Below are positions 10-64,000 of a stretch of DNA of 64,000 bases, piece by piece. The notes under the pieces were generated by a model. The model searched no databases. It was not told the DNA's origin and worked only from the letters and a program-made list of their open reading frames with translations. Made by a program: the position numbers and the translations under genes. Source of the DNA: Cephalotus follicularis (lineage: Eukaryota; Streptophyta; Magnoliopsida; Oxalidales; Cephalotaceae); NCBI GenBank assembly GCA_001972305.1, contig BDDD01002232.1, positions 1 through 64,000 of the forward strand, written 5' to 3'. Every line of letters starts with the position of its first letter. Positions within the stretch are counted from its first letter, which is position 1.

Positions 10-175
10 AACCAACAGCAAGTTACTAGCACAGTGGCTAAGTAATCAACAAGTTATTAGCACGGTGGCTAATAATCAACAAGTTATTATCACAGTGGCT
101 AATAATCAACAAGTTATTTGCACGATGGCCAATAATCAACAAGTTATTAGCACGATGGCCAATAATCAACAAGCA
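10..175. repeat. 30-bp tandem repeat in LTR M copy 1
   Basis: About five copies of a 30-bp unit containing CAACAAGTTATTAGCACG, with a few substitutions per unit. The small open frames on both strands here are by-products of a period divisible by three. The matching stretch in copy 2 (about 2313-2414) has only about three and a half units. Confidence 0.85.
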
Positions 176-669
176 CAAGCATTTCACAGTACAAGTCAAG
201 CAATTACATATAATTACTTGATCAAATATATTTGTTTGAAATATACTTTTTCCGTTCACAAGTTGTAATAAGTCACAAACTTAAAACAATACATTTCTCT
301 TGTCTTTAGAAATACTTCCCCAATCATTTCAAAAATATATACATTCATAATCTATACATTTCCGCAAATTTCATTTGGTTTCATAATCAAACCTTTAAAA
401 CATTTCTCTGTCATCGGAAATACTTCCCCAAACATTTCGAAAATATATAAATTCATATGTTGACAAATATACATTTTCGTACCCAAATGATCATAATAAT
501 CATGCAAGCTTTTCAAAATGGTTAACACTTTCAGAAAGCAACCGTAATGAAAAATCACAGTAACAATGCAAACATATGCTCAGAATGCATCTAGGTTAGT
601 TCCTAGAGTCGTTTCGGGTCTAGCGGGTCCCATTCAAGCGAAATCCTACTGATCAGGGGAAAAGGCGTT

Positions 670-1010
670 GATGTCATCCTTAAGGCGTCGACGTCTTTAT
701 CATACCAGAGAGTATCAAAACATGAGTCCTAGTTCGGGAAGTGAAATCCGACCTATTAATCCCTCGTGTAATCGAATATCACTCTCTAAACGTGAAAGGT
801 ATGCTACTGGTTAACAGCAACATAATCATAACATCAAATCGAAACCAAACAGGCGATCCCAAGTGGCTTAAACAGCCATCCGAAATGAACATTTACAGTT
901 CAACGATTTTTCCAGAAAAGGCATCGATGTTAATAAAAAGACATCGATGTCTTTCACATATCCACACGAAGGCATCGACGTCTTTACACAGGCGTCGATG
1001 TCTTCACAAC
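670..1010 (-). repeat. GTCGACGTCTTT repeats in LTR M copy 1
   Basis: About six copies of GGCGTCGACGTCTTT or GACATCGATGTCTTT. A further cluster lies at 1755-1905 with forms such as AGACGTCGATGTCTTT. Copy 2 has the same at 3130-3215 and 3965-4115. Confidence 0.8.
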
Positions 1011-2081
1011 CCAGAACATCATTTACACAATTTTAACACACCAAGCCACTAACAAATCCATCCTTTACACAACAGATTCACGTATTCATGTAATCGTACA
1101 TGCATGATCAACTCAGTGTATCACAGTAACACTACAACAAGTCCACAATCTCAATTCAATCATTAACATGCAATTCACCATGCTATTCATTAACTTAGAA
1201 CTCAAAATGCATATATAAATCCATCACTTTCCCCTACCTTGATGTTCCAAGTTAGGAACTAGAAAGTCCACCTCTTTAAGTTCCCAAGTTCTGGCTACCA
1301 GTAGCTCCAAGATCCCTTAGCAACTGCTACCCACGAGCTCAAACCTCAAGCTCCAAGCAAACTCAACAATGATGACTCTCACACTCACAGTTTTCTTTCC
1401 TTTCTTTCTTCTGGTGTTTTAAAACGAGAGAGATAAGTGGGGAGGGATATTCTTATGCAGGTGGCTTCCCCCCAACAGCCTTCTGCTAACATTTAATAGG
1501 CCACCCCCGTGATCTCTCCCACTTTCCAGGTTTCTGTATTTTCTTTTTGTTTTCTATTCTTCCTTTTGCAGGTTGCATGTTAGGCTGTATATTCCTTGCA
1601 TGTTCTAGGTGATGGGCATGTTTTAGTATTCCTGGCAATACACCGACATGCTCAACACGTCATAATGCACTTGTAAAGGCATTAGGTAAAGCCCCCCAAA
1701 CAAATCCCCTTGCACGTTACTCTGCCAGAGAAAAAGCGCGACAGACGTTCATACAAAGGCGTCGACGTCTTTCCTTAGACGTCGATGTCTTTTCCATTTT
1801 TGTAAGAAGGTGTCGATGCCTTCTCGAAATGTCGACGTGTATGCTCACGCATTCACGCGTATTTCAATCCTCAAAGCCGTCGACGTCTTTCCAAAGACGT
1901 CGATGTCTTTATCCCAAAACAACGCCGTTTCAAGCTTTTGACAAACACTTTCCATTTCCAAGACCATAATTAGGGTTTGTAAGCATCTTTTGAGTTCAAA
2001 TATGCAACATTCTCATAAAATCAAGTTCAAGATTACATCATAAATCGAAATATTACATTCAGAAAAATACCGGGCGTTACA

Positions 2082-4289
2082 ATAAGAATACCTCCGTATG
2101 TATATATAAAAATATATGCATGCTCACAGTACAAGTATAACTCAAAAGTTATATCAACACAAGCAGTAAATATGTTCCCAAAAAGGAACCAGACAATCCA
2201 ATCGTCATGACCGTCGCCACCTCCTGGCCCCAACGTCATGCACTCTTACTCCATCCCCGTTTGCGAACGGTTTTGGAGCAAGTCCTCCGTAAGTTGTTTA
2301 GCACGGCGGCTAAACCAACAGCAAGTTACTAGCACGGTGGCTAAGTAATCAACAAGTTATTAGCACGGTGGCTAATAATCAACAAGTTATTAGCACGATG
2401 GCTAATAATCAACAAGCACAAGCATTTCACAGTACAAGTCAAGCAATTACATATAATTACTTGATCAAATATATTTGTTTAAAGTATACTTTTCCGTTCA
2501 CAAGTTGTAATAAGTCATAAACTTAAAACAATACATTTCTCTTGTCTTTGGAAATACTTCCCCAATCATTTCGAAAATATATACATTCATAATTTATACA
2601 TTTTCGTAAATTTCATTTGGTTTCATAATCAAACCTTTAAAACCTTTTCCTGTCATCGGAAATACTTCCCCAAACATTTCGAAAATATATAAATTCATAC
2701 ATCGACGAATATACATTTTCGCACAAATGATAATAATCATGCAAACTTTTCAAAATGGTTTAACACTTTCAGGAAAGCAACCATAATGCAAATCACAGTT
2801 ACAATGCAAACATATGCTCATCTAGGTTCGTTCCTAGAGTCGTTTCGAGTCTAACGGGTCCCATTCAAGCGAAACTCTACTGATCAGGGGAAAAGGCGTC
2901 GACGTCTTTATCATACCAGAGAGTATCAATACGCGAGTTTTGATTCGGGAGGGTGAAATCCGACCTGTTGATCCCTAATGTAAATGGATCTCACTCCCTC
3001 AACGTGTAAGGAATGCTACTGGTTAACAGCAACATAACCAGAACGTCAAATCGAAACCAAACAGGCGATCCCAAGTGGCTTAAATGGCCATCTGAAATGA
3101 ACATTACAGTTCAACGATTTTCCCAGAAAAGGCGTCGATGTCAATAAAAAGACATCGATGTCTTTCACATATTCACACGAAGGCATCGACGTCTTTACAT
3201 AGGCGTCGATGTCTTCACAACCCAGAACGTCATTTCCATAATTTAAACACACCAAGCCATTAACAAATCCATCCTTTACACAACAGATTCACGTATTCAT
3301 GTAATCGTACATGCATGATCAACTCAGTGTATCACAATAACACTACAACAAGTCCAAAATCTCAATTCGATCGTTAACATGCAATTCACCATGCTATTCA
3401 TTAACTTAGAACTCAAAATGCATATATAAATCCATCACTTTCCTCTACCTTATTGTTCCAAGTTAGGAACTGGAAAGTCCACCTCTTTGAGTTCCCAAAT
3501 TCTGGCCACTAGCAGCTCCAAGGTTCCCTCAGCAACTGCTACCCACGGGCTCCAATCTCTAGCTCCAAGCAAACTCAACAATGGTGGCTCTCACACTCAC
3601 TGTTTTCTTTCCTCTCTTACTTCTGGTGTTTTAAAATGAGAGAGAGAAGTGGGGAGGGTTGTTCTTATGCAGATGGCTCCCCCCTAACATTCTTTCTCTT
3701 ACATATAATGGCCACTTTCGTGCTCTCTCCCACTTCCCTTCTTTCTGCATTTCTTTTGTTTTCTTTAACCTTCCTTTTGCAGGTTGCATGTTAGGATGGC
3801 ATAATTCCTTGCATGTTCCATGTGAGGGCAGGTTTGGGGCATGCCAGGCAATACCCTATCATGATCCATTCGTCACCATGCACTTGTAAAGGCATCAGGT
3901 AAAGCCCCCAAAGATCCCATTGCATGTTACTCTGCCAGCGAAAAGCACGATAGATGTTCTTTACAAAAGCGTCGACGTCTTTCATTAGACGTCGATGTCT
4001 TTTCCATTTTATAAGAAGGTTTCGATGCCTTCTCTCCATGTCGACGTGCATGCCCATACATTCACGTGTACCTCTGTCTCCAAAGGCGTCGACGTCTTTC
4101 CAAAGACGTCGATGTCTTTGCCACAAAACAGTGCCGTTTCAAGGTTTTGACATACACTTTCCATTTCAAAACCATAACTAGGGTTTGTAAGCATCTTTTG
4201 AGTTCAAAATCTCAACATTCTCATTAATCCAAGTTTAAGATTACATCATAAATCGAAATATTACATTCAGGAAAATACCGGGCGTTACA
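2082..4289 (-). mobile_element. LTR M copy 2 (Gypsy-type)
   Basis: Second LTR of family M. Read on the minus strand it starts TGTAACGCCCGG at 4289 and runs leftwards. Its 3' portion (2082-2302) holds the segment that resembles the conserved 3' part of the other Gypsy LTRs in the window, and copy 1 interrupts it at 2081. The right border falls inside an integrase reading frame of element N, just before codons for NVFHVS, so M inserted into N. It contains GTCGAC-type repeats at 2890-2912, 3130-3215 and 3965-4115. No genes. Confidence 0.7.
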
Positions 4290-4543
4290 ATGTGTTCCAT
4301 GTGTCTATGTTGAGGGGTTATCAGTATCATCCTCTTCACGTGGTCCACTATCCTTTGGAAAGGATTAGAGAGGATTTATCTTGTGAGGAGGAGGCGGAAA
4401 CTATTCTGGATCGATAAGAATGGGTTACGCGTAGTAAGACCATTCCTTTTGTTAAGGTCTTGTGGAAGAATCATTCAGAGAGTGAGGCTACATGGGAATT
4501 GGAGGAGCACATTCGGGAGCAATACCCTCGCCTGTTTGATTGA
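4290..4543 (+). pseudogene. Gypsy integrase C-terminus with chromodomain (element N)
   Basis: The plus-strand translation starts NVFHVSMLRGY, the end of the retroviral-type integrase domain. It continues through PLERIREDL to IPFVKVLWKNH and ATWELEEHIREQYPRLFD, followed by a stop at 4541-4543. The last part is the chromodomain typical of Tekay/Del-like Gypsy elements, which directs integration towards heterochromatin. An in-frame TAA follows ETILDR near 4410, so it is dead. The left side is cut by LTR M at 4289; the rest of pol should lie left of the window, beyond the M insertions. Confidence 0.85.
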
Positions 4544-6959
4544 GGTATGTGGTTACTTATGATTTCAGGACAAAATCCTTGTTTGGACGGTGACTTGTTT
4601 TCGGAAATGAGGATTCTTTCCATTTTTTATTTATCCGATTTTCCTTTAGTGTTGGACGCGTTTTCTGCTAAAAGGAAAGTTCTTAATCCACCGAATTTTG
4701 CCATCAATTGCACGATCTCATCCTTTTTTTAAAAAAACTACACCACCTGCATGTTTATACAAACTAGAAACGCCATTTCCTGCATATTTACAAACCAACA
4801 CAACCACTTTGTCCCCTTCGTTCTTCATTGTTTTGGCTTCAACCGAAGGTATTTTTGAAACAAAAGCTTTAGTTTTCGTGATATATTACTGATATTGATC
4901 ATTAGATTATACTAAACATGTTAGAAATCGTTTTGATTATGAACTTTAGAGGCCCTGTTTTAAAGAAAATGTCTACCATGATTCAACCTGTGAATTTATA
5001 TGTTTATGCATTTATACTGTTATACTGGTGTTTTAAACAAAGGAATCATGTTTTATGACATACCTACTACTATCTTGATGTATTATGATAAGCAAAATGG
5101 ATTTGGTTCATAATTTTCAACTGATTGATCGACTGTTTTAAAATTTTGTAAAGACCAGAAAATATGTTTTAACAAATCGTTATTGCTTCATGTAAACTGT
5201 ATATGAGTATGATTACGTATAGAAATGTTATACTGGTACTTTGCAACCATAGAAGACATGTTTTACAAATTGCATATTACTGTTTTGTTGGATTATTTCT
5301 ACGGAAATCTGGATTTTGAAACTGTTTTTATCGCCCAGTTCGTCTTAAGCATCGACTGTTTTTCATTCCTATCGACGCTTACCCTAACTGTAGACTCTTT
5401 GGTTATGTGTTATATGTAAGCGTCGATGCTTTCATAGTGTTTTGTCATGAATACCGTCGACGCTTAGGTATGTGTTGTCATGTTACCGTCGATGCTTTAG
5501 TAGTGTTTCGCAATGCATTGCTTCAATGCTTTGTGCAGCGCCTTGTTTTAACGTTTAGCCTAAAAGCGCCAACGCTTTGTATTAAAAAGTCAACGCTTTT
5601 GGACTTATACGTTGACGTTTTGGGAGCTTGTGTTTTAACGTCTGTTTAATTGTGTATTCGGTTTGGTTGATCTGTCTAGGTTTTGATAATTTCTATGGTG
5701 GAGGTTAGGGTGTTCCAAGTGTGCTTTTCATTCGTTTTTGGTTTGTTTAGACTTGGACAGCTAAGGTACGGATGTTCGTTCCTTGATATATTCCTATGGG
5801 TTTTAATTTTTGAATATGTACGGATTTTTTGTTCTTCGATATTCCTTCGGTTCTATGAATTATGTCATGCTTCGGATTTTGATATGTTTTAGAAATTAAG
5901 TAAGCTTTAATATTTTTATGAAATTGAATATTTCTAACTTTATAAATTCAACTGTGATTTGTGATCATCTCTTTTATTGTGAAATTAAATGAGTTGATTT
6001 CTGATTATGAAAAGATGTGCAATATGAAATTCTATCGTTTCATAACGATTTTTGGATATGTTGGGAAAACCTTTTTATATGTGTTTTTAATTGATTTTTG
6101 AAATCAATTATTTTAAATGGTAAAGTACTGAGTTTTTGTACCCACATATGGGGTGTACCATAGGCATGTCCTTTGGCACGAAGGTATGACACTTTCCGTG
6201 GTGGTGTGACTAGTCCATGGCCTCTCTCTTGTTTTGATATCCTTTGTGGAGGATTATGGATCCATTATTGGTGATAGAGGTGTATGGATCGATCCTAAAA
6301 ATATGTGATATTATATGTTATGAGAATTGATTGTGTAGTGCCGTACACGTCATTTCTATTTGGCATGTGGACGTCGCAAATCCCATGCTTATGTTTGTTC
6401 TGATATGTAATATGTTATGATGTTCAGTATAGAACTTTATGTTTTGGAAGGCATGCTTTATGTTTTGAAAGTTATGGATTTGGTTTATACGAAAATTTCT
6501 GAGGTAATTTATAAAAGAATGTTTAAACTAATTTTTGCTTAAGATTTCTATCTTTGAGTTTATTTGAAATCTTACTGTCTTTTTAAATTATCGTTTACTG
6601 CTTTTACATTCTATATCAGTACTGAGGTTTGCTCAGCCGCGTTTTTGTTTCTATGCGGCAGCTTATCAGGAACACCGGGGAAATGTGTGATGAGAGGGTA
6701 CCCTATGTTTGAGGATCATCTAGGAGTTGGACCTATTATGTTTCTGTTGTTTTATGGTCATGATTAGGCCAGTTTTATAAACAATATTTAGGTTTCGGAT
6801 TATGTTATGACTTTCAATTTATGATTTTCAGATTTTGATTTTTGACATCAGATTATGTTTTAGACCACCACGTTATGAATAAAGTTAAGTTTTATATTTT
6901 TGATATGTTCTGTTATGTATGTATGTCCTGTAAGCACTCCCACCTTCGGGGGTGTTACA
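4544..6959 (+). mobile_element. 3' spacer and 3' LTR of Gypsy element N
   Basis: After the chromodomain stop there is a decayed form of the usual GGACGAAATCC segment (about 4567-4578). The LTR that follows ends at 6959 with GGGGTGTTACA. The LTR start is not resolved; no clean TGTAA border is visible between 4580 and 4750. It has a GTCGAC repeat cluster at about 5418-5645. It also has the two blocks shared with LTRs A-D: one around 6131-6260 (CCACATATGGGGTGTACC) and one around 6620-6665 (GTACTGAGGTTTGCTCAGCC in related copies). The right border abuts a Copia LTR that lacks its first ~424 bases, so N inserted into Copia O. Confidence 0.65.
5418..5645 (+). repeat. GCGTCGATGCTTT repeats in LTR N
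   Basis: About nine copies of a motif such as AGCGTCGATGCTTT, ACCGTCGACGCTTA or AAAGTCAACGCTTTT, 20-40 bases apart. The right end decays to GTTGACGTTTT. Confidence 0.8.
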
Positions 6960-47315: not shown

Positions 47316-48050
47316 TTACTGTTATTATTACTATTACGGTATAATGAAATAATGAATGTTATGTTCCTCTCCTTTGCCTTTAACGCCTAGAGCACGTATA
47401 TTGCTCTTCTTAAAAGTCGAGGAACCCGAGGATCCGGTCTGCCTAAAATGAAATGTCTATTCCTGTCCTGACTCCTCTACCTTAACGTCTGGAGTGAGTT
47501 ATCGCTCCTCCTTTAGTAGGGGATGCCGAGGAAGGATTTATAGTGACTATGAATGACTGTTAGTGATTGTAAATGGACTGTTACCGAATGCACTATATTG
47601 TACTGTTATCGATTATTATTGACTACACTGTTATTATTGCATCTCTCATTTGCATTGCATATGTTTGTTGCATATGCATCACTTCATAGGTGGTAGTCCC
47701 TACGCAACCACTGGTTGCTGACCCATTGCATTGTTATGTAATGGGTCAGGTACAGGTAGTGCTCCGCAGCGATCCAAGGATTGGACAGCTCAAGTAAGTC
47801 TCCTCCACTGCAGATCGATGACCAACTTATATTTATATCTTTTTAAATTTGATATGACCTGCCGGCTTGTGGCAGAGCCCTTATGAACTGTATTGTATAA
47901 CATTGGGTATATCCACACAAGTGATATTTTATTGGAATTATTCCGCAAGCATTATTATATCGTTAAAGGCTTTTAATTTCCGCTGAATATTGGTAAATGT
48001 ATGGTACTGCTGTAGCATGTCAAACCTACGGGTTTGGGGCATTACAGTTT

Positions 48051-51838: not shown

Positions 51839-54640
51839 ATTTTATAATATAAAAGAATGGCTATTGGACTGGGCCGAATTCATATAAAGGAAAAATTGGG
51901 TTTAAAATGTATTGTTATTTGGGCTGGAATTGGATTAGTAGCATTTTGAGCCTTAAATGGGCCCTATGGTATTGGGCTGAATTATGATAAAATATAAGAA
52001 AATGAGTATTGGGCCGACCTCACTAATACTCAGCCCACATTGTGAATGAAATGATAGTCGGCGTCCAGTGTGTTCTAGAGTATTCCTTTGTTGAATATAA
52101 AATAGAGGTTGTGGGTGTGGGGGATGGCTGCTGCTTTTATGCAAAGGAAGAGACAAAAGAGATGGCATCCTCTAGAGACTCTTGTCTCCCTTTTCCACTT
52201 TCATTTAATCGCTCCCTCACTTCCAACCTTGAAAGAGATGTGGAAAGAAGGACCATGAGGATGAAAAGAGAAATAGTGAAGGAGGCAAGGAAGTGGCTGT
52301 GCGTGACTGGCAGAGCAAAGGAAGACATAATCAGACTCCAGTGGATTCGAGGTAGGATCTACTCCTACTCAGTTCTTTTTCTTCTACTATGTATTGTTAT
52401 AAATATTTGTTAATGATGAATGCTTAGGCTAGAATTAGACAGAGGATACAAGGCAAAACTTACTTTGATGGATTTAATGATCCTTTGCAAATGATGGGTG
52501 TTATATTTAGTGAATATTTAGCCTTAAAGCAAAGATGACGTCCTCTGGTACATCACATACACCACCGTCACGCATCTTAGCACACTGGAGCACGTACTCG
52601 AAATGTAGCATGTATACGTTCCAATCTCCCCAACGCGTGCGTCCTGTGCATGCCTCCTAAGCTTCCCAACGTATGCGTCCGAGGAACCCATTGTGCCGAG
52701 GAACCCTGGCGCCATTGTGCCGGGGACGCCAGTGTCGTGCATCTTTCTGTCTGAGTACACGCAGCCGAGGTGCCATCCACCCTTTCATGTCATGCAACGA
52801 TGTCGTGTTCTCCTCTGCATGCTTCCCGAGCATGCCATGACGCCGAAGCACTCTCCTCTGCCATGCGCCGTACATACAACACACACTAAGCTCTCCTCTG
52901 CCATATGGCACCGTACATGTGAACTCACCTTCCTCTGCCATGAGCGTCCTCCTCTACCATGGGCCGAGCATGCATTCAAACCATGCATCGTCCTCTGCCC
53001 ATGAGCCAAGCCCTCCTTTCTCATTTCCGCCATGCACTGTGAAGTGCCGACCTCTCCTCTGCCATGTGCGCCATGCAATACCGAGCTCTCCTCTACCATG
53101 TCTGCCATACACTACCGAGCGTTCCTCTACCATGCATGAGGCGAGTATGAATCCAATGCATGCTTCATACTCTACTATGCACCCATAACCTGTGCCTTGA
53201 GATCCTCATTTCCATATACCCGAGGAGCCATGGTGCAGAATACCAGCTGCTGAGTTCCCGCAGAGCCAAGCACGGGGTGCCGAGGTACCGAGCACCCATC
53301 GTCGAGCTCCCCACTGTCCAATGCATGTGTTCTATGCATGCCATGGCACAGGGGATACAAGTGCTGAGATCTCCACTGCCCACAACTGAGACGCCGAGAT
53401 GACGTCTATGCATGCATGCGTCCAGAGCATGCATACGTCCTGGTGTACTGAGAAGGCCCCAGGGCACGCATTCGAACAATGCCTCTTTCACCTGTGCCAC
53501 GCACTCTTATTGCAAGCGTCCCATGCATGTGGCATGCGCTTAACAACACCCCAAGTGCATCCATGCATGCCTTATGAAGTGGCTAAGTGTCTTAGAGTGC
53601 ATTTTGATGGCTATAGTGAAAGGATTATATTAATGGAAAAGGATAAATGGAGTGTAATGTAGTATAGTGCATTAAAGGTAGACCCACAGTGAATAGTAAT
53701 ATAGTGTTACTGTAATGATAATGTACTGTTAATGTAGTGTTATTGTACTATAGAGTTAATGTATTGTACTGTACAAGATCACCAACTGAGATGAGCCTAC
53801 GGTATCATCGACCGAGATGAGCCAGTAAGGCTATATTTGAGGTGAGCCTGGAGTATCACCGAGATAGCCCAATGGATCACCAACCGAGATGAGCCACACT
53901 GACTGAATGTTACTGTTACTATTACTATTACGGTATAATGAAATAATGAATGTTATGTTCCTCTCATCTGCCTTTAATGCCTAGAGCACGTATATTGCAC
54001 TTCCTAAAAGCCGAGGAACCCAAGGAACCGGTCTGCCTAAAATGAACTGTCTATTCCTGTCCTGACTCCTCTACCTTAACGTCTAGAGTGCATTATCGCT
54101 CATCCTTTAGTAGGGGATGCCGAGGAAGGATTTATAGTGACTATGAATGATTGTTAGTGACTGTAAATGGACTGTTACTGAATGCACTGTATTGTACTGT
54201 TATCGATTATTATTGACTATACTGTTATTATTGCATCTCTCATTTGCATTACCTATGCTTGCTACATCTGCATCACTTCATACGTGGTAGTCCCTACACA
54301 ACCACTGGTTGCTGACCCATTGCATTGTTATGTAATGGGTCAGGTACAGGTACTGCTCCGCCACGAGCCAAAGATTGGACAGCTCAAGTAAGTCTCCTCC
54401 ACTGCAGATGGACGACCAGCTTATATTTATATCTTCTGAAATTTGATATGACCTACCGACTTGTGGCAGAGCCCTTATGAACTGTATTGTATAACATTGG
54501 GTATATCCACACAAGTGATATTTTATTGGAATTATTCCGTAAGCATTATTATATCATTAAAGGTTTTAAATTTCTTTTGAATATTGGTAAATGTATGGTA
54601 CTGTTGTCGCGTGTCAAACCTTGAGGTTTGGGGTGTTACA
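51839..54640 (+). mobile_element. 3' LTR of element J, missing its first 13 bases
   Basis: Colinear with 45188-48046 and ending GGGGTGTTACA. The TGTAACACCCAAA start seen in the 5' LTR is absent. The LTR follows directly on GAGATTCCTTTCGGGC, with no polypurine tract. The small deletion therefore removed the polypurine tract and LTR start, most likely after integration, since integration needs the intact end. Confidence 0.88.
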
Positions 54641-54645
54641 TGACT

Positions 54646-54985
54646 CCTTTAGTGGGTGACAATTTGAGGAAAACATGGTCACCAACACTGAACTCCAAGC
54701 CTCTATGATGGACATTTGCATGGCTTTTCTGTCTACTGTGTACCACAAACAATTGATCTTTAATCAATTTAACTTTCTCTGAGGTAATCTGTACTATCTC
54801 TGGTCCCAGAATGCTCGTCTCACCGACGTGATCCCAACAAACTAGCGATCGACACTTCCTACCATATAGGGCCTCATAAGGAGCCATTTGTATGTTCTCG
54901 TGATAACTATTGTTATACGAGAAGTCAATCAAATGCAAGTAGTCATCCCAATTACCTTCAAAGTCAAGAACGCATGCTCGAAGCA
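54646..54985 (-). pseudogene. Gypsy H integrase, segment between J and CACTA
   Basis: The minus-strand frame reads LRACVLDFEGNWDDYLHLID, NNSYHENIQMAPYEALYGRK, and VGDHVFLKLSPTKGV at the left end, where it joins 45169. These are conserved parts of the Gypsy integrase after the catalytic core. The upstream side stops exactly at the CACTA terminus at 54986, so the rest of H pol and its 5' LTR lie beyond the CACTA element, outside the window. Confidence 0.9.
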
Positions 54986-55059
54986 CACTACTAGAAAAAG
55001 GACATTTCCCGACCGCCAAAATGGTTGCGAAAACCTTAAAAGCTGTCGGCAAAAGGTTT

Positions 55060-55615
55060 CCCCGACCGCAACGCCGATCGCAATGATGGCCGCTTATAAG
55101 TGGGTCACCGATTATAGCCCGACCGTTTTCTCGACCACCTTTATCATTTACCGACCGTTAAAACGGTCGGTGAGAGAAGCGGTTGTTGTGGATCAGTGTT
55201 AGAAAATTAATTTATGAGTGTTTTGCCGACCGCCCTAGTGGTCCGGAATGTTATAAGCGGTCGGGAATTAACCATAATTTGTGAAAGTAAATTAATTTGA
55301 TGAGGTTTTCCCAACCGCCCAGGGCGGTCGGGTAATCATGAATCGGTCGGAAATTAGCAATAATTTTTGAAATTAAATTAATTTTATAAGGGTTTCCTGA
55401 CCGCCCTTAGCGGTCTGGAAATCAATCAGTGGTCGGCAATTAACAATAATTTTTGAAATTAAATTAATTTGATAACATTTTTTCGACCGCCCTGGGTAGT
55501 CAGGAAATCACTAAGCGGTCGGCAATTAACAATAATTTTTGAAATCGCATTAATTTGATAAGGGTTTTCCCGACCGCCCTGAGCGGTCGGGAAATCTTTA
55601 AGCGGTCGGTAAATT
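55060..55615 (+). repeat. CACTA subterminal repeats, 86-bp units
   Basis: From about 55230 four to five units of about 86 bases, each with CCCGACCGCCC, then GCGGTCGGG, then GCGGTCGGCAATTAAC. The unit thus contains inverted copies of the GCGGTCGG core. Looser inverted copies occupy 55010-55200. In En/Spm-type elements such subterminal motifs bind the TNPA-like protein during transposition. Confidence 0.85.
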
Positions 55616-56026
55616 AGATTGCGAAATAAGGTTTATGAGAATTATATAAATTTTTCTACCATGGTTGTTGTTACCAATCACATTTGGTCTATTATAAGTT
55701 AGATCATTTGGTGGACAAGCAACCACTACGATGATTTGCAATTAACATTTTCTTTGATTCCTATGTGCTGATCCAAAGATTGCAAGTACGTGAGCAACAG
55801 TATAAAAGAATAATTGCCAATTCTTTAGAAAAAAAATTGATAAGAGTGAGTCTTTTCAACAAGCTTATACAACTTGTTATACAATTTTTTGATATAATTA
55901 TAAGAAATATGATCCAATCAAAATTTACATCCTAAAATCTTCAATATGTCAACAGATTTATAGCAATTTGTGTACAATTAGGCTGCAATATATACATGAC
56001 ACTTTGCAATCTAGACAGTAATTAAC
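55616..56026. other. AT-rich CACTA internal DNA
   Basis: About 400 bases between the subterminal repeats and the first captured exon. No repeat or coding sequence is recognised. It may be the intron or 3' flank carried with the last exon. Confidence 0.5.
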
Positions 56027-56138
56027 CTCCTTTTGTTCAGGTCTCTTATCCAACTCTTTGAGCTCCATATCCAATGTTTGTTGAAGAGAAGAATGTTCTA
56101 GCTCCCTTTTCTCATCTTCAATATCATCTGCATGTAAA
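56027..56138 (-). pseudogene. Captured exon, kinesin (KIN-4-like) coiled-coil fragment
   Basis: The minus-strand exon begins after TTTTTTCAG at 56139 and ends before a GT at 56026. The frame reads LHADDIEDEKRELEHSSLQQ, then LDMELKELDKRPEQKE. The charged heptad pattern and the wording resemble the stalk of plant kinesin-4 proteins, as I remember them; the assignment is moderate. Its phase does not match the preceding MIP2-like exon (that exon leaves one base, this one needs two), so a spliced product would lose this frame. Confidence 0.45.
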
Positions 56139-56641
56139 CTGAAAAAATTAAACATGCATACATTTACATATCTAGCTCGGAAAACACAAAAAGATTCCAA
56201 GATCTTTAGCAAACATCACAATGTTGGACAATGAAACAATCACAATAGTAGATCTATCATTATTGAATACTAATATAGAAACTTAATGCGCATGCAAATA
56301 AAAGATGTGGGTGTTGGTTTCACAATTTTACTGATCTAAATAACACATTTTACTTAATACTAATATAGAAACTTAATGCGCATTAGGATTGTTTTGTTCA
56401 AAATATAACTTTCTAAAAAAATCTTTTTTTTTTTTTGGGAGTCCAAATTTGGTCTTTTGTGCAATTTTTTCTTTAATTTCCAATTTGAATATACCATCAT
56501 AGTCAACTCAATCGCAAAATCATATAACGTGTGCCAACTTTTCTAGATCCAAAGGATATCACATTAATAAGATAGAAGTAAGTGTATTTTTAAAGTTTTC
56601 AATCAAAAGGTCACGAGTAAACAAATAGAACGAAACCATAC

Positions 56642-57160
56642 CAGAATTTCGACTAGTGTTTAGTGAGACAGCACTACCAAAAACTACAAGCAAAGAACAT
56701 TCTGGATAATAGTCAAAGCAGAAAACAATATGTGGGAACAATGTGTTCACAGCTAAGCTGGCACTGGACGTACTTGTCAAGATAGAGGCACTTGGATCTT
56801 GACTGATTTCAACATGATGCAGCAACCCATTTGACATCAAGACAGTGAAGCTACACATGAAGACAGAGTAACTAAATTAAAAAATTTCTGTAATAAACCA
56901 AGGACACAAGCATTCAAGCAATTTGAGATACAAAAAGGAGGGGGGAAAACGTACTTACAAGTAAGATCTTTGTGCATCAATATCATCCTGCATAATCAGG
57001 CCTATCACTGATGCAGAACCTTTAAAATGCTTCTTCGTTATTCTTGTTATCTCTTCACTGTTTGTTTTGATAAAATATATTCTGTCAGTGTCATCGACAA
57101 CTCCAAGAACATCATGTGGTTCGGACCAAGCTCCACAGGTAAATGCACCAAGGTTGTCAC
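56642..57160 (-). pseudogene. Captured exons resembling MIP2/NBAS N-terminal propeller
   Basis: Two minus-strand exons, 57160-56959 and 56850-56642, with AG before and GT after each. They read DVLGVVDDTDRIYFIKTNSE then VIGLIMQDDIDAQRSY, and FTVLMSNGLLHHVEISQDPS then FDYYPECSLLVVFGSAV. This resembles the N-terminal beta-propeller of plant MAG2-interacting protein 2 (Sec39/NBAS family, ER-Golgi tethering). Only about 137 residues of a very large protein are present. Both exons are open. The first accepts the phase left by the kinase exon at 57770, giving GYGDNLGAF at the join. Confidence 0.55.
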
Positions 57161-57769
57161 CTGAATCATGGAACACAAATTAAAAACCTATTTTAAGTTA
57201 AAGAAAAAAAAAAGCAGATGGAAACTCACATAACCAGCAGAGATGACATTAAGAAATCAGCAAAACAATTTACAGTGCTAAATTTGTGAAAATAAGAGTC
57301 AGAGTGACTCAAACTTTCACAATATGGATATCAATTATGCTAGTTTAATATTCAAGCTGTCCTGATACTTCAATGATGGGCAGAGTTCTATAGCTAATGG
57401 ACCAAATACAAAACTTCACTAGTGTAACATTGCAAGGTGGCAGACGAGGATGGTAGTCAAAGTCCATGGAGCAACATTTTCAGTCGAGACAGACAATATA
57501 GTATAAAGTACAGACAATGTATAGCACGATACTGAAAGCCAATGAGTGGTATATTATCATCTGACTGATTACAATAAATAACCATAGAGTGTATCCAGGA
57601 AAAAAATGAATACATTAACGTTTCTATATACACGAGTAGATCTATCATTACATACACAAAAGAAAATGACTACTGCTTACAAACTAGTTAAACTGTCAAG
57701 AAGGAATTTTCAACTACTTTAATATCAAAAGCCGTATAGTTATTTATTATCAGCAATCACTCAGCTTAC

Positions 57770-59087
57770 CATATCCCTCCATAGAGATGATTTGGAGATC
57801 TCCCCCAAAATACCAAGCATACAAGCGACTTATAGGAATCCCATATCTATATCCAGCCATTGTTACTGCCTCAGATGTTCCAAGATCCGTGTGCTCATCA
57901 AGTGGGTTTTGCGCAGTGCTATAAAGATACGTTAAAATGTTGGGAAGACCACTTCTTGGGATGCCTCCCCCCTCATCCGAGACCTACAAAGCCAGTAAGA
58001 GCAACATACCAATTATCACATTCATTAAACAAAGCAATGCGACGAAGATGCTTGATAATAGCATGCCAAAATTCTCTGACAAAAAGATCAGAAAAAGGGA
58101 AAAGAAAAAAAAATTGATATTCATGGCTGTTTTTTTTTCTTGTTCTTTAAAAAAATTGTTACCTTTATGGTAACATCCTCTATTCCATCAGCAACTATAA
58201 TTCGAACAAGAGGTGCAACTTTATCAGAGTCCATATAATGCTCTTGCATAGCTCGCAAGGAATTCCTAACCAGCTCAAATACCATAAGTTGCAAGTGTGC
58301 CGGTACATACCTGATATACCAACAAACACATTATACATGGAACAGAAGAGAGAACAAATGCTCTTCAACTCATTTAATCATCAGTCACAATCACTAGGAC
58401 TACGGAAAGTCAATCAACGCAATCAAGGGGTAGAAATAAGAAAGAACAATTCAAGAAGGTAATGGGAAACAAAACAAAAATTCCATGGAATTAAGGAGTA
58501 TATCAACTTACGGGATCGTAAAAGTGGGATCACCGTAGATATTAACATCAGGCGAACTGCCATACTCTCGTAAACACATTTCACGGGCATCCTCACTCGC
58601 ATTGCGTGCTACCTCCACTGGAGACATTTTTGTATGTATACAACCCACACAATGAGGTGGATTGGGATTGTGCAACTCCACATGCTGCCCTGAGTTTCAC
58701 TCAAATTCAAAGCATAAAACCAGAATGTTAGACAACAAAATCCGCAATGGAAACAATGTCACAGAAACACTAAACAAATTTAGTATCAATTTAAGGGCTA
58801 TATAAAGGAAGAGGGAAATGATCCTAACCAATAAGCATTCGACTTCCGAGCCTGGACATGTAAAGCCGATCCAAAAACTGATGGATCTCATCAAGTTTCT
58901 CGCAAACTATCTTTAAATCCATGCCTTTCTTTAACCGTTGAACTCCCAAAGCCATCATGGGAACCACATTGTTGTGCCTTACCTTTATTGCCTTGATCAT
59001 TTGAGTAAACTCCTTCTCATCATTTGTGTCCTTGACTTTAGGAAATGATCTCATGTCACAGAAAGAATCCAGATACCAATATGGCAC
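57770..59087 (-). pseudogene. Captured pyruvate dehydrogenase kinase exons
   Basis: Four minus-strand exons with GT-AG borders and matching phases: 59087-58829, 58689-58512, 58310-58163 and 57983-57770. They cover the kinase from YWYLDSFCDMRSFP through IKAIKVRHNNVVPMMALGV, HTKMSPVEVARNASEDARE, the N box FELVRNSLRAM, and the ATP-site VSDEGGGIPRSGL to LQIISMEGYG. The family phosphorylates and inactivates mitochondrial pyruvate dehydrogenase E1-alpha. Missing are the first exon (start, about 95 residues) and the last exon (DAYLHLSRL end). The G2 box reads GYRYG instead of GYGYG, and CVGC stands where related proteins have TVGY, which points to relaxed selection. No stops or frameshifts. Confidence 0.85.
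57984..58162 (-). other. Intron in captured kinase fragment
   Basis: AT- and A-rich intron with GT at its 5' end (58162-58161) and AG at 57985-57984. Retained introns show capture at the DNA level rather than through mRNA. Confidence 0.7.
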
Positions 59088-59448
59088 CTAATAATAAGAT
59101 GTTAACAGAAAGTGAGTGTGTGTGACCAAAAAAAAAAACTGCAGATCTTCAATCTTCACTTCATCACCCAACAACCTATCTATAGAAGTAATGTATACTG
59201 AAAAAAAAAACATATTCATGAAGTGGTTCCTGATTCCCTCACAACAATCTGGATTATGATTGATGAGAAAAAAAGTGATATCAACCTTCTATAACAATAG
59301 TGGGTAGCAATGGTAAGCTTAACCGAGCAGGTTAAAACACCCATTCCTAGGCAGATGGAGAGGAGTCAAAGGTGTTTGCTCTACACTCTTTAATACAACA
59401 AAAGATAGCCTTTGACAAATTTGATTTTGTATTAATATTTAATATAAG

Positions 59449-59489
<41 letters not shown>
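59449..59489. repeat. (TA)n microsatellite
   Basis: About 20 TA dinucleotides in the intron between the unidentified exon and the kinase exons. Confidence 0.9.
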
Positions 59490-59491
<2 letters not shown>

Positions 59492-59520
59492 TAAACAACT
59501 AACATATGAGAATGAGTTAC

Positions 59521-60172
59521 CTTCGGTGGCTTGAACAGAAGTGGACACTGGACACAGTTACACACCAGCTGCCCAGCAACAAAACCCCTCAATCATGCAA
59601 ATAAACCAATATCTATAAGCTAGATTTGCCAACTGTTTTCTCAGTATTATCTTCAAGTAGTCTCACCATGTGTTTTATTATGGTGTTATCTATATACTAA
59701 TAACTAATACCTAACATTTTGTCAACATATGCTGCATATATATCATCCTCAAGAATAACAAAATTGATCTAAGAATGGGTTCATGCCCATATCATTTACT
59801 AAATTTGGACGTGGAAGTGAATAAGATGATAAATAACAAACCAGCACTGCAGGAAGAAAGAGGGTCCTTCTGCGAGTCCTTCAACTCCTTGCTGATTCAT
59901 TTGGAAGCCATCACATAACCTAAATATTTCAAAAACTTGTATCAGAAAACTCATATGGCCAAAATCATTAATATTGATTCAAAATAAAATCTTTCAAAAC
60001 CCCACAACACAAAAAGGCACCTCATAGAAGCACCCCGAGTTTATGTCATTCGAGAAACCAGGAAAAAAGAAGAAGAAATGTATATATGTGTGGTTATAGT
60101 GATCGATGTACGGTACCATTTTTCAAAGGCACTTCCATGGGGAGCACGTTGGATTGCATGGAAAAACCCAAC
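59521..60172 (-). pseudogene. Unidentified captured exons upstream of the kinase part
   Basis: Three possible minus-strand exons. 60172-60117 reads VGFFHAIQRAPHGSAFEKW. 59919-59842 continues it in phase with LCDGFQMNQQGVEGLAEGPS then FFLQC. A third, about 59568-59521, reads LVCNCVQCPLLFKPPK and ends in a donor GT in phase with the kinase exon at 59087. The first two join in frame; the third does not follow the second in frame by the acceptor I can see. I do not recognise the source gene or genes. Conserved-looking composition and proper splice borders support real exons. Confidence 0.45.
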
Positions 60173-60463
60173 CTGTAATCAAAACCTGTAATCAATGAAA
60201 AAACCATATTACAGATATACTCCTTACATAGCAGATCATCCCAAAACAAAGAAAAAAAATCAAAACTTGTAATCAATGGATATCATCAAAACCCAACCTA
60301 AATGCCAATCGTAACAATAACATATATAAAACACTAAGCTATCAATTCAAGATTACTCCTTCTAAGAGCAATGTGTACATAAATATATAGTTAAGAATAC
60401 ATATGCAAATATTTCAACTTATTACCTAAAGAAACTTTGACGCCAATCACATCTAATCATCAT
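60173..60463. other. CACTA internal DNA, no gene seen
   Basis: AT-rich, intron-like sequence upstream of the first visible captured exon. AAAACCTGTAATCAATG-like stretches recur two or three times at 60174-60280. Confidence 0.4.
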
Positions 60464-62648
60464 TGTAACACTCGAGTTTTTCCTATGTTGTAATTTCACA
60501 ATGTAATGTGTTTTTATTGTGGGATTAATAAAATAATGGATTCCCAAGACCTTGATGATGTTTTCCAAACTCTAATAATGTAGATTTTAGAGTGAAAATG
60601 TTAAAGGAATGTTAAAAGGGGGTAAAACGACGCTGTTTTGGAGGAAACGCGTCGACGCCTTACGAAACACATCGACGACCTTGAAGTAACGGGGCGCACG
60701 TAACTGCATGCATATGCACGTCGATGCAGGCGAGGACATCGATGCCCTCGTGTAAAAAGGGAAAGACGTCGACGTCTTTTAAAAAGACGTAGATGCGTAA
60801 CATCGAATGTCAGGCACGTTACTCTGCTGACAAGATAACGTGCGAGGGGGCACTATCTAGGCATTTTAACATGCAGATCAAGACGTGTTGAGCATGAAAT
60901 ATAGTACCCTGCACTGCTACGACTGAAATGGCAGGGGTGGAAAGGTATGAGAGAGCATGCATTGGCCTTGGCAGCAAATGGGAGACACCTGGTGCGCCAT
61001 GCAACCAGGTGTGGAGAAGGGTGAAGAAAGGGGGGGATTCTGGCATTGGTGGAGAAGGAAACAAACTTCAACCAACATAAAACTCCCTTATCTTCCCAAT
61101 AGGAGAAAGGAAAATACAAAAGAAACAGTAAGGAGAAAAAAAAAACCCAAACCACCATTGTTGAACTTGGTTGGAACTTGGAACTTGGAGCGGGTGGCTT
61201 GCAGCAACGGGAAGGACCTAGAGGCTGCTGTGACCGGTTTGGAATGCAAAGAGGTGGACTTTCCAGTTCCTAACTTGGAAAAAAAGGTAGGGGAAGCCAT
61301 AACTGTAATCTTAAGATTAATGTTCATGCATGGACTATGATTTTGGTGTATAAATTGCATGAATACTGAATTGATTTTGCTCACTGGATTAATGCCATGT
61401 TATGCTAGATATGTGATATGTATCTGCATGTTGGTTTCCTGTGTTGATTACATGTTGTTTTGCATGTATGTGATTTGTAATGGCCACTGTCTGTTATGTC
61501 GGGAGGAAGAAGACGACTGCTGCTCGAAAAACGTCGGCGCCTTTTAAGAACATCGACGTCTTTAGGTTTTTGCTTGGTTACTGACGTGAAACATATCGGC
61601 TTCTTTGTAAAGACATTGACGTCGTTGACTATCTACTTGGGTTTTGACGTATTACACGTCGACGCCTAAGGTTCCTACCTTAACGCGTCGACGCCGTAAG
61701 AAATACACTGACGTTTAAGGTTCCAGACCTTGAGCTTCGATGCGTATGAAATGGACATCGACGTCTTTTAACAGTGGAATGCCCTGACACTAAGGACTTG
61801 AACATCGACGCTGATGGACAAAGACATCGACGCCTTTTAAATAGACATCGACGTCTTTTGGTACTGTTTAGAGGTTTCCTTATTTAACGATGCGAAACGA
61901 TCCCAATTCCTGTTAGGGTGGATTTGAGCATTTGTATGCATTGCATATACACTGTTTACTGCCTGTTTGTCTACTGTTTGTAAATCGTTTATGATTTCTA
62001 AAGTTTTGATATTTAGAAATGCATATGTGAACTCGGAATGCGCTATTTTGAAAATATGTATTGATTGATAACGTATTTTCGAACGAACTGGAAAGCGATT
62101 TACACTACTAATTGTTCAAAAGTATTTCTACTACTGAAAATACATATTTCAAATATTTACTACATTCAGAAATACTTGAAAATGAACTGCCTGTTGTCGA
62201 TCTAAACGATCACCACAGTACTATTACTGCACTGTTTACTGTTTGATTCACTGTTTGCTTTGTGAATTTCTATGTGGTTGTGCTTGAGCCACTGGTTGCG
62301 TGGCGGAAGCTGCCAGCGCCGGCTAATGGTAGGGTTGACCTAGGGGCAAGAAGTTGGCTGGGTGACTCACTGTACTGTATTGTTGCCTCGCTTGGTTGCC
62401 TGGAGTAGGGACCGAAGTGGGAGTGTAGCGTGGGGCCAGGAGTTGGCGGCGTTAAATATACTGCCTGACTGTTGTGGTCCTTTGTGGACATACTGTACTG
62501 CCTGTTGGTCCTTTTAGGACATTATTGTGACTGTTGATGTAACCCTGGCCGGGTTACAACTGTACTGTTCTTGCATACATATATTTTCTTATATATGTAT
62601 CCGCTGTTATTTTACTGTACTGTTAAAATATATATATTTCTCATATAT
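60464..62648 (+). mobile_element. LTR K (Gypsy-like), left part
   Basis: Starts TGTAACACTCGAG at 60464, with ATCAT before it as a possible duplication. It carries GTCGACG clusters at 60648-60795 and 61530-61860, and a leader-like block CCTAACTTGGAAAAAAAGG, then TAGGGGAAGC, near 61268-61300 that recurs in LTR L. The sequence from 61900 to 62648 has repeated ACTGTACTG / CTGTTTACTG stretches and no genes. L cuts it at 62649; the end is not in the window. Confidence 0.65.
61530..61860 (+). repeat. CATCGACGTCTTT repeat cluster in LTR K
   Basis: About twelve copies of CATCGACGTCTTTT, CGTCGACGCC or similar. A smaller group of about six lies at 60648-60795. Confidence 0.8.
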
Positions 62649-64000
62649 TGTATCGCCCTGAATTTCATAAATAATTATTATGAAATTGGTGCGTGTACGA
62701 TCGTATTAAAATCGATAGAGCCCGGAGTAATAAAAAGGCATTACGCATTTAAGTCGTAATCGTGTTAGCTAAGACGGCTAATAAAATCTATTTTTAATGC
62801 GCGACAATAAAGCCTGAATGTTCGCATTTTTATTGCGATTATTTTGTTGGTCGTTTGGAAAATTTATGTCGCGATTTGCGGAAAAATCGGGACCCGGACC
62901 TTAGTATTTTACCAGAAAATACTAAGGGGGAAGCAAAAATAATAAAAGAAGAAGGGGAGACACGGGCGCATAGCGCGCCCGTGCGTGTTACCTGCAGATT
63001 AGAGGGAGAGAGAGACAGGGAGAGAGTGTGAGAGAGATTGGGAGAGAGATCGGAGCAGAGGGAGAGAGAGCGCGCCGCAGCTACCCACCGGACCAGGGGA
63101 CGACGGCGAGCAACCCAGACCCTCAACCCACCGGTAAGCCCTTCCCCCTCCTCCTCTTTTTCTTCTCTTCTCCCCGCCACTGTCACGCCTCTTTCCCGGC
63201 ATTTCCCGGCGCCGTTAGCGTCGCGGGTGGCCTGGGTTTTGGTGTAGATGGCTAGCTCTTGCCATTTTGACCACTGGTGAGGTGTGATTCGGTCGGAAAC
63301 AGTCGGAATCAGTTGAATGAGTCGACTCAGTGAGTCGACTCATTGTCGCATGAGACACGGCGTTTGGCGCCGAGTCTCGGTGAGTCACGGGCATTAACGC
63401 GTATAACTGGTGATTGTGTGGCATTTTTGGGTGGTGATCGGACCTGTGGAGGTTCGGCGAGTTGACTCAGTGAGTCACAACTCACTGTCGGCCGTGGTGC
63501 GGCGTTCAGCGTCGATTCCCGGTGAGTCTTGACCAGTTCTGTGTAGACCGTTCAATGTGGAACCCGTTGATGGGTGTTTCACCGCCTGGTTGCGTCGGTC
63601 GGAATCCGGCCGGCGTTTCGGCGACGGAAATGTTTTATGTGTCGAACATAACGAAAATGTGTTCTATGTGCAGTGTACGAGCGGCAATTGGATTTGACAG
63701 TGAGGAACTGATCAATTGGCGAGAACCGGGTTCGGTTCAACAGTTTCTGGGAAAGGTTCGGCAATTGAACCTGCGGTTTGACGGTGCTGGTGATACTGCG
63801 ATTCCTAACTTGGAATCAAAGGTAGGGGAAGCTATACATGCAAGTTTGAGTTCAATAATATTGTAATGCCATTGATGAAATGCATGGTTTGCGGATTTGA
63901 ATTGTGTGAATGTGTTAGGGTTACTGTAAGTAGTTAACCTGTTATGTATATTGTGTCGTAAAATGATTGTGGACTGTGGATTATGGATTGTGTGACTGTG
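62649..64000 (+). mobile_element. LTR L (Gypsy-like), left part
   Basis: Starts TGTATCGCCCTGAATTTC at 62649. It has a GA-rich tract (63001-63070), a likely splice donor CACCGGTAAGCC near 63130 followed by a CT-rich stretch, and GAGTCGACTCAGTGAGTCG near 63321. Near 63800 there is a block shared with K (CCTAACTTGGAATCAAAGG, then TAGGGGAAGC). It runs off the right edge. The small frames at 62839-63866 are in the GC-rich leader and unrecognised. Confidence 0.6.

Follow-up and report, generated by a model that had tools for sequence, protein, structure and literature searches.

How do exons of several host genes, introns included, come to lie in a single orientation within a DNA transposon? The question is raised by a locus of the carnivorous plant Cephalotus follicularis at which a preliminary description, made from the sequence alone, had recognised a CACTA element carrying exons of a kinase, a MIP2-like protein, a kinesin-like protein and an unknown fourth protein. 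The window, i.e. the whole stretch of 64,000 nucleotides that was analysed, corresponds to positions 1 to 64,000 of contig BDDD01002232.1 (C2232:1-64000; further contigs are likewise named by a C and a number) in an assembly of 1,577,397,061 bases and 9,746 contigs (GCA_001972305.1). We consider it very likely that a transposase-encoding CACTA element of the En/Spm type entered the integrase gene of a Ty3-like retroelement, that another retroelement then split the CACTA element, and that its lineage gathered host fragments one by one in a single slot, bordered on one side by the left subterminal repeats and on the other by the 3′ end of the transposase unit.

The terminal sequence CACTACTAGAAAAA begins at exactly 54986, where it breaks the integrase frame of the retroelement (named H), and is the sole exact match within the window, in which matches with up to 3 mismatches are at chance level in total. 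As had been stated before, no second CACTA end was found within the window by a terminus pattern search, and none between 55620 and 56000. In a further 50 kb of the contig the second terminus, TTTTTCTAGTAGTG, lies at C2232:94185-94198. The trinucleotide GCA stands on both sides of the element, just before 54986 and just after 94198, as a 3-bp target site duplication (TSD). The integrase frame broken at 54986 continues past 94198, and the flanks joined with one GCA give a stop-free reading. The terminus and the resumed integrase sought to the right were found, although the sequence at 60464-83725 turned out to be a nested retrotransposon and not CACTA. The element spans C2232:54986-94198, with a net length of ~16 kb without the nested long terminal repeat (LTR) element. 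It has the features of the CACTA (En/Spm) superfamily: terminal inverted repeats (TIRs) at both ends, a 3-bp TSD, subterminal repeats at the left end, which had also been noticed earlier, and matches to a transposase of the Tnp2/TnpD type. If up to 2 mismatches are allowed, the TIR pattern matches the assembly 521 times in forward and 540 times in reverse orientation. The parts of the element within the window and its flanks are as follows.

54641-54985, minus strand: integrase coding sequence of the target Ty3-like retroelement H up to the insertion point, as read from the joined flanks; the final 3 bases, GCA, are the target duplication.
54986-54999, plus strand: terminal inverted repeat CACTACTAGAAAAA, left end (3′ side of the transposase), with its partner TTTTTCTAGTAGTG at C2232:94185-94198.
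55204-55616, no strand assigned: subterminal tandem repeats with an 86-bp unit and GACCG/CGGTC motifs (4.8 copies, score 482).
55632-55939, minus strand: downstream (3′UTR-side) part of a pyruvate dehydrogenase kinase (PDK) gene, module P3U, 90.6% identical to C1817, on which the PDK stop codon lies next to it; 10 of the 15 mapped copies or pieces contain it.
55940-56372, minus strand: fragment of a KIN-4-like kinesin (KIN) with a coding exon at ~56027-56130 (by eye), contiguous with motor exons in C143.
56373-57619, minus strand: fragment of MAG2-interacting protein 2 (MIP2, Sec39 domain) with two exons at ~57162-56958 and ~56871-56644 (by eye) and introns; matched on C2726.
57650-59353, minus strand: PDK fragment with exons 5 to 2, introns and part of intron 1; parent gene on C1817.
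59354-59492, no strand assigned: short stretch that links PDK intron 1 to the backbone and contains an AT repeat; 59354-59470 is common to C107, C423, C8203, C5122, C1969 and C1510.
59493-60463, minus strand: probable element backbone, with the exons first ascribed to the fourth protein (~60175-60112, 59934-59850 and 59590-59524); assigned by family comparison, no relative.
60464-64000, no strand assigned: nested LTR retroelement K (C2232:60464-83725; TSD ATCAT), outside the CACTA proper and with another element within its LTR; the CACTA element continues at C2232:83726.

The right part of the element, on the minus strand, matches the Pfam families Transposase_21 (2e-68), Transpos_assoc (4.2e-23) and DUF4216 (1.4e-17), while matches to DUF4218 and Transposase_24 are under their Pfam cut-offs. 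Pack-TYPE elements are defined as non-autonomous, and any element with a transposase hit is put in a separate class (PMC8903248). Because Transposase_21, DUF4216 and Transpos_assoc stretches lie in the element, this definition does not cover it and the earlier label Pack-CACTA falls away; judged by these domains, it is a transposase-bearing CACTA element with cargo.

In the sense of the transposase, toward the left end, the backbone is followed by the short stretch, PDK, MIP2, the kinesin, the PDK 3′ region and the subterminal repeats. The PDK exons match Pfam BCDHK_Adom3 (1.3e-28) and HATPase_c (2.6e-9) as well as a PDK chain in the PDB (4.1e-51). The parent gene on C1817 has all six exons with no stop inside them and runs, past its stop codon, into the stretch that matches 55632-55939. 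The window copy is without the last exon and intron 5 (~550 bp), and 55940-57649 stands in their place. The MIP2 fragment is 95.9% identical over 1,243 aligned bases to its parent on C2726, where the gene is that of P0126, the Cephalotus follicularis Sec39 protein. The coiled-coil exon of the window kinesin is itself a weak match (Pfam KIF21A_4th, E 0.03, under the cut-off); in the sister copy on C143 this exon is contiguous with kinesin motor-domain exons (best PDB match KIF4), and the cargo appears to be KIN-4-like. The minus-strand kinase, MIP2 and kinesin exons with their introns are accordingly confirmed, and on these matches the window copy holds three host sources, PDK, MIP2 and a KIN-4-like kinesin, instead of the four proposed.

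By eye, the exons ascribed to a fourth protein are flanked by plausible splice sites. Searches with them found no relative in Pfam, in the PDB (best E 0.32, taken as chance) or among proteins of ~280-880 aa (one candidate, none scoring); a longer parent protein could have escaped the last of these. The transposase-side edge of this stretch is reached to within 3 bases in 37 of the 39 scored contigs besides C2232 (exceptions C1969 and C235). The left edge is ragged in the 39 contigs, falling at 59959 in 12, at 59809 in 14, at 59624 in 4 and at 59493 in 9. Since 37 of 39 contigs reach the transposase-side edge and no host relative was found, the stretch is probably element backbone and no captured host gene.

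Other copies were found by a search with 56020-60463 as query (55 matches; 40 of 666 candidate loci scored) and by a backbone search (40 of 339 candidate loci scored). KIN and MIP2 are arranged as in the window in C5122, C96, C1969, C2116, C1510, C26, C277 and C1084, at 93-97%, with MIP2 in part only in C2116 and C1084. C235 lacks MIP2 but retains half of KIN and the greater part of PDK. Neither KIN nor MIP2 is present in C107, C423, C90 and C1014, whose PDK retains intron 5 and the last exon; of this 555-base piece, 433 bases are present in C8203. C221 has the left end and PDK including a broken exon 1, with no backbone within the stretch seen. A second complete copy, with both ends and the TSD CAT, lies at C5122:64304-79592; the final base of its right terminus is A instead of G.

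Modules were mapped on both parents and on 15 copies or pieces, one of them the window, at E 1e-15 with a minimum length of 90 bases and a minimum identity of 80%, lowered to 75% for the left end. Read from the left end, C2298 and C22 have the PDK 3′ region, KIN, a nodulin-like module, an ATPase and the backbone, whereas C143 has the PDK 3′ region, KIN with its motor, the nodulin-like module and the backbone. In C368 the left end is followed by the nodulin-like module, GH9, thiolase and the backbone; compared with it, C583 is without a 699-base piece containing the best GH9 match and keeps the neighbour of that piece. In C565 the order is left end, PDK 3′ region, PDK last exon, ATPase, thiolase and a PDK intron piece, then the first 71 backbone bases. 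C392 has the backbone only in the module map, together with pieces common to C565, C143, C2298 and C22. The PDK intron 5 piece occurs twice in C565 (locus L053, 1067-1555 and 7041-7315 in element orientation), in its usual place and beside the backbone, and beside the backbone also in C5588, which suggests exchange between family members. As read from these combinations, the cargo was captured stepwise, in more than one event, and the family shuffles it. The proposal that a single capture-bearing element had moved into a retrotransposon therefore stands as to the insertion, with both ends, the TSD and the resumed frame, and gives way to stepwise capture and shuffling as to the cargo. Near the cargo copy in C2116, a second, more diverged CACTA end (L018:10-572, 69% identical to the left end) may belong to a neighbouring or nested element.

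The order of capture can be read at the junctions, where two filler pieces, f1 and f2, repeat parts of the kinesin segment.

56247-56293, no strand assigned: template of both filler pieces inside the kinesin segment (f1 56247-56262, f2 56266-56293), with exact copies at the junctions.
56356-56383, no strand assigned: filler copy of f2 at the KIN/MIP2 junction, an exact 28-base copy.
57635-57650, no strand assigned: filler copy of f1 at the MIP2/PDK junction, an exact 16-base copy.

With up to 2 mismatches allowed, 0.00 chance matches are expected for f2 and 0.07 for f1. The second copy of f2 is found in 7 of the 8 other contigs with KIN and MIP2 (exception C2116), that of f1 in 5 of the 8, the stretches of C26, C277 and C1084 ending or breaking before the MIP2/PDK junction. 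The MIP2/filler/PDK junction is alike in the 5 aligned contigs (a sixth locus gave no alignment) and the KIN/MIP2 junction in the 7 aligned. Because the fillers copy the kinesin segment and are present once each in C143, which has KIN without MIP2, MIP2 was most likely captured after KIN. The other fragment edges that were read are abrupt, with a few shared bases at most. Templated filler DNA is a mark of template switching during break repair, and the MIP2 borders, apparently filled by copying the kinesin segment, point to such a repair.

PDK seems to have been captured before KIN. A common set of differences from the PDK parent is found in 90% or more of the element copies; the list of 50 fixed sites includes ~12 at 58114-58133 that resemble an alignment artefact, so that the number 50 is unreliable. 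The copies with KIN and MIP2 share 6 further PDK sites, two of which adjoin in a homopolymer-rich intron stretch, and a tree split (support 0.947) separates these copies from the parent and the PDK-only copies. The most likely order of capture would hence be PDK, KIN-4-like kinesin, MIP2.

PDK, MIP2 and KIN are all on the minus strand and in transposase sense, as first described, and this uniformity extends to other copies. At the thresholds used, the module map contains no inverted module. Five loci were scanned in 15 sense frames: at 4 of the 5, matches to E1-E2 ATPase, kinesin, nodulin-like, GH9 and thiolase families exceeded the curated Pfam cut-off, and four further matches were below it (a second kinesin stretch, DUF4679 and NYN_YacP twice). 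The 15 antisense frames of the same loci gave no Pfam match, and neither strand of L049 (1.5 kb of C7367) matched; for L053 the scan covered 100-6300. The ATPase, whose motifs might point to a plasma-membrane proton pump, is called no more than a P-type ATPase here. In total, the seven identified host genes (PDK, MIP2, kinesin, ATPase, nodulin-like, GH9 and thiolase) all lie in transposase sense.

On this basis we tentatively propose that the family is a directional modular exon-shuffling machine, in which one slot downstream of the transposase is filled by template switching with cargo in sense orientation only, and copies recombine modules. Each capture probably took place when a break inside the element was repaired by copying other templates, with template switches that left filler, and family members probably swapped modules later by the same route or by recombination. 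Only sense inserts would last: introns in sense can be spliced, a sense 3′ end would terminate the element transcript, and the transposase unit would survive. Within this proposal, the probable reason why cargo is tolerated in sense only is that the end of the element's own transcript is replaced by what was captured, introns and the 3′ ends of genes, the PDK 3′ region of many copies among them.

A less probable route, which we regard as unlikely, is fusion of neighbouring elements, in which two CACTA copies flank a gene, lose their inner ends and are mobilised as a whole by the outer ends, repeated for each gene. This is the Pack-CACTA fusion model (Catoni et al. 2019) as related in PMC13317346 and PMC8903248. 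Fused ends could leave an extra internal right terminus such as the one 234 bp inside the true one in the window copy (C2232:93951-93964 and 94185-94198) and in C5122 (L045:8345 and 8579); in C423 the matching right-end stretch is without this doubling in the alignment. Against fusion, however, the six edges read are bare junctions or templated filler with no terminus remnants bounding the fragments, and all fragments are in one slot and one orientation.

That the chimeric string of exons is a new expressed gene under selection is very improbable. The splice phases across the joins are compatible (by eye), and the gene model P0001 on C5122 (L015) spans PDK and MIP2 across their join, as an expressed chimera would. 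Nevertheless, the window PDK exons differ from the parent by 21 nonsynonymous (N) and 7 synonymous (S) changes with no stop and no gap, and because this N:S fits the neutral expectation (2.71, 3.11 and 3.61 at transition weights 4, 2 and 1), they are, as far as substitutions tell, evolving neutrally and pseudogene-like instead of under purifying selection. Divergence from the parent is 6.17% in introns and 3.51% in exons. Over six PDK copies the summed N:S is 113:43, with one stop each in C5122 and C96, a 1-base gap in C1510 and larger gaps in C96 and C235. A functional chimera was dropped on account of these neutral exons. Further protein models with the HATPase_c/BCDHK kinase sit on cargo contigs, namely P0002 on C221 (L020), P0003 on C1969 (L017, L030) and P0033 on C96 (L016); the models are marked LOW QUALITY. 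The gene models of this genome thus include transposon cargo annotated as proteins, which calls for caution.

Helitrons are not known to have TIRs or to make target duplications. That a separate Helitron, or another gene-capturing element, holds the exons and sits inside or beside the CACTA element is still less credible, even though maize Helitrons hold many gene fragments taken up stepwise (PMC3288121). In several copies the modules adjoin the CACTA left end and backbone without a break and share no outer boundary of their own, and CACTA ends and 3-bp TSDs delimit the unit as a whole; Helitron ends were sought by eye only. With modules continuous with the CACTA ends, TIRs and TSDs, this origin was rejected. 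Finally, an ordinary host gene locus or segmental duplication hit by CACTA ends, with which the retained introns and the PDK frame free of stops and gaps would agree, has a negligible probability and is refuted by the second terminus and the resumed integrase, besides which the fragments match separate genes on C1817 and C2726, are multi-copy with ends and TSDs, and show a neutral N:S.

Several points weigh against stepwise, sense-only capture by a CACTA element, the reading we prefer. The scored loci are just 40 of 666 and 40 of 339 candidates, and the parent search had located parents for PDK and MIP2 only, leaving KIN without one. Seven of seven genes in sense amounts to 1 in 128 (one-sided) and is suggestive only, and the captures may be linked. 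In the C423 copy the TSD is imperfect (TGG to the left, GGG to the right). Apart from the split mentioned, the trees are star-like: the MIP2 parent is placed beside C2116 and not outside the copies, C8203 stands next to the PDK parent, and the backbone tree places C7367 and C9259, which have no KIN-MIP2, among the KIN-MIP2 copies. These odd placements may reflect exchange or weak signal. In principle, one filler piece could also stem from a later local duplication.

At the site of the nested element K, the base matching 60463 joins directly the base matching 83726-83739 in C5122, C1510, C7367 and C9259, and some 30-50 different bases stand between the two sides in C107, C26, C423, C90, C8203 and C5588. 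The LTR stretches of K are 93.0% identical and K contains more elements, one in its left LTR at 62649-69354 and another near 76479-83534; a run of N lies at 66720-66998. Elsewhere in the window, 47407-48046 and 54001-54640 are 92.3% identical and are probably the LTR ends of an element within H, beside the CACTA element. Repeat-rich stretches containing motifs similar to GACGTCGACG are found toward either end of the window (970-4119 and 60644-61858).

Multi-gene cargo in CACTA elements, transposase-bearing CACTA elements with cargo and stepwise capture by Helitrons are already known separately. Maize Helitrons are rolling-circle elements not known to have TIRs or TSDs, whereas the Cephalotus element is a cut-and-paste TIR element. 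The two are alike in that sequential acquisition was inferred from related copies, and two putative autonomous Helitrons carry gene fragments (PMC3288121). Closest in content is Tgm-Express1 of soybean, a CACTA element in which intron and exon pieces from five unrelated host genes are retained as exons that can be spliced (PMC1947982). It has 5.7 kb and is described as made of captured fragments, while the Cephalotus element also encodes transposase stretches, and the order of capture, the filler and the exchange of modules can be read from its sister copies. Pack-CACTA and other Pack-TYPE elements likewise hold host coding DNA between CACTA ends, and their copies gain and fuse segments, but they are non-autonomous and the Cephalotus element has transposase domains (PMC8903248). 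The CACTA-like Jozin of Chenopodium is transposase-bearing with captured host gene fragments; these lie upstream of ORF1, on the 5′ side, and not, as in Cephalotus, downstream of the transposase unit with several per element (PMC8978399). In the Tpn1 family of Ipomoea nil, with several hundred CACTA copies, interiors are replaced by host genic sequence and chimeric Tpn1 transcripts occur; its gene-carrying copies are described as non-autonomous with a substituted interior, in contrast to the transposase-bearing Cephalotus element (PMC5105172). The literature searched, in excerpts and with most subscription journals outside its scope, holds no report of this Cephalotus CACTA family or of a sense-only rule for CACTA cargo. 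What appears to set the family apart is the slot downstream of the transposase, an order of capture that can be read, together with templated filler, and modular shuffling restricted to the sense orientation.

The way in which host genes are taken up by cut-and-paste transposons is still under discussion. The genome of Cephalotus follicularis keeps intermediates, i.e. PDK without KIN or MIP2, KIN without MIP2 and all three together, along with two parents and the junction filler; therefore the order and route of capture can be read. The sense-only rule can be tested by orientation counts over the whole family. Copies with differing combinations of cargo show how CACTA elements can shuffle exons around a genome.

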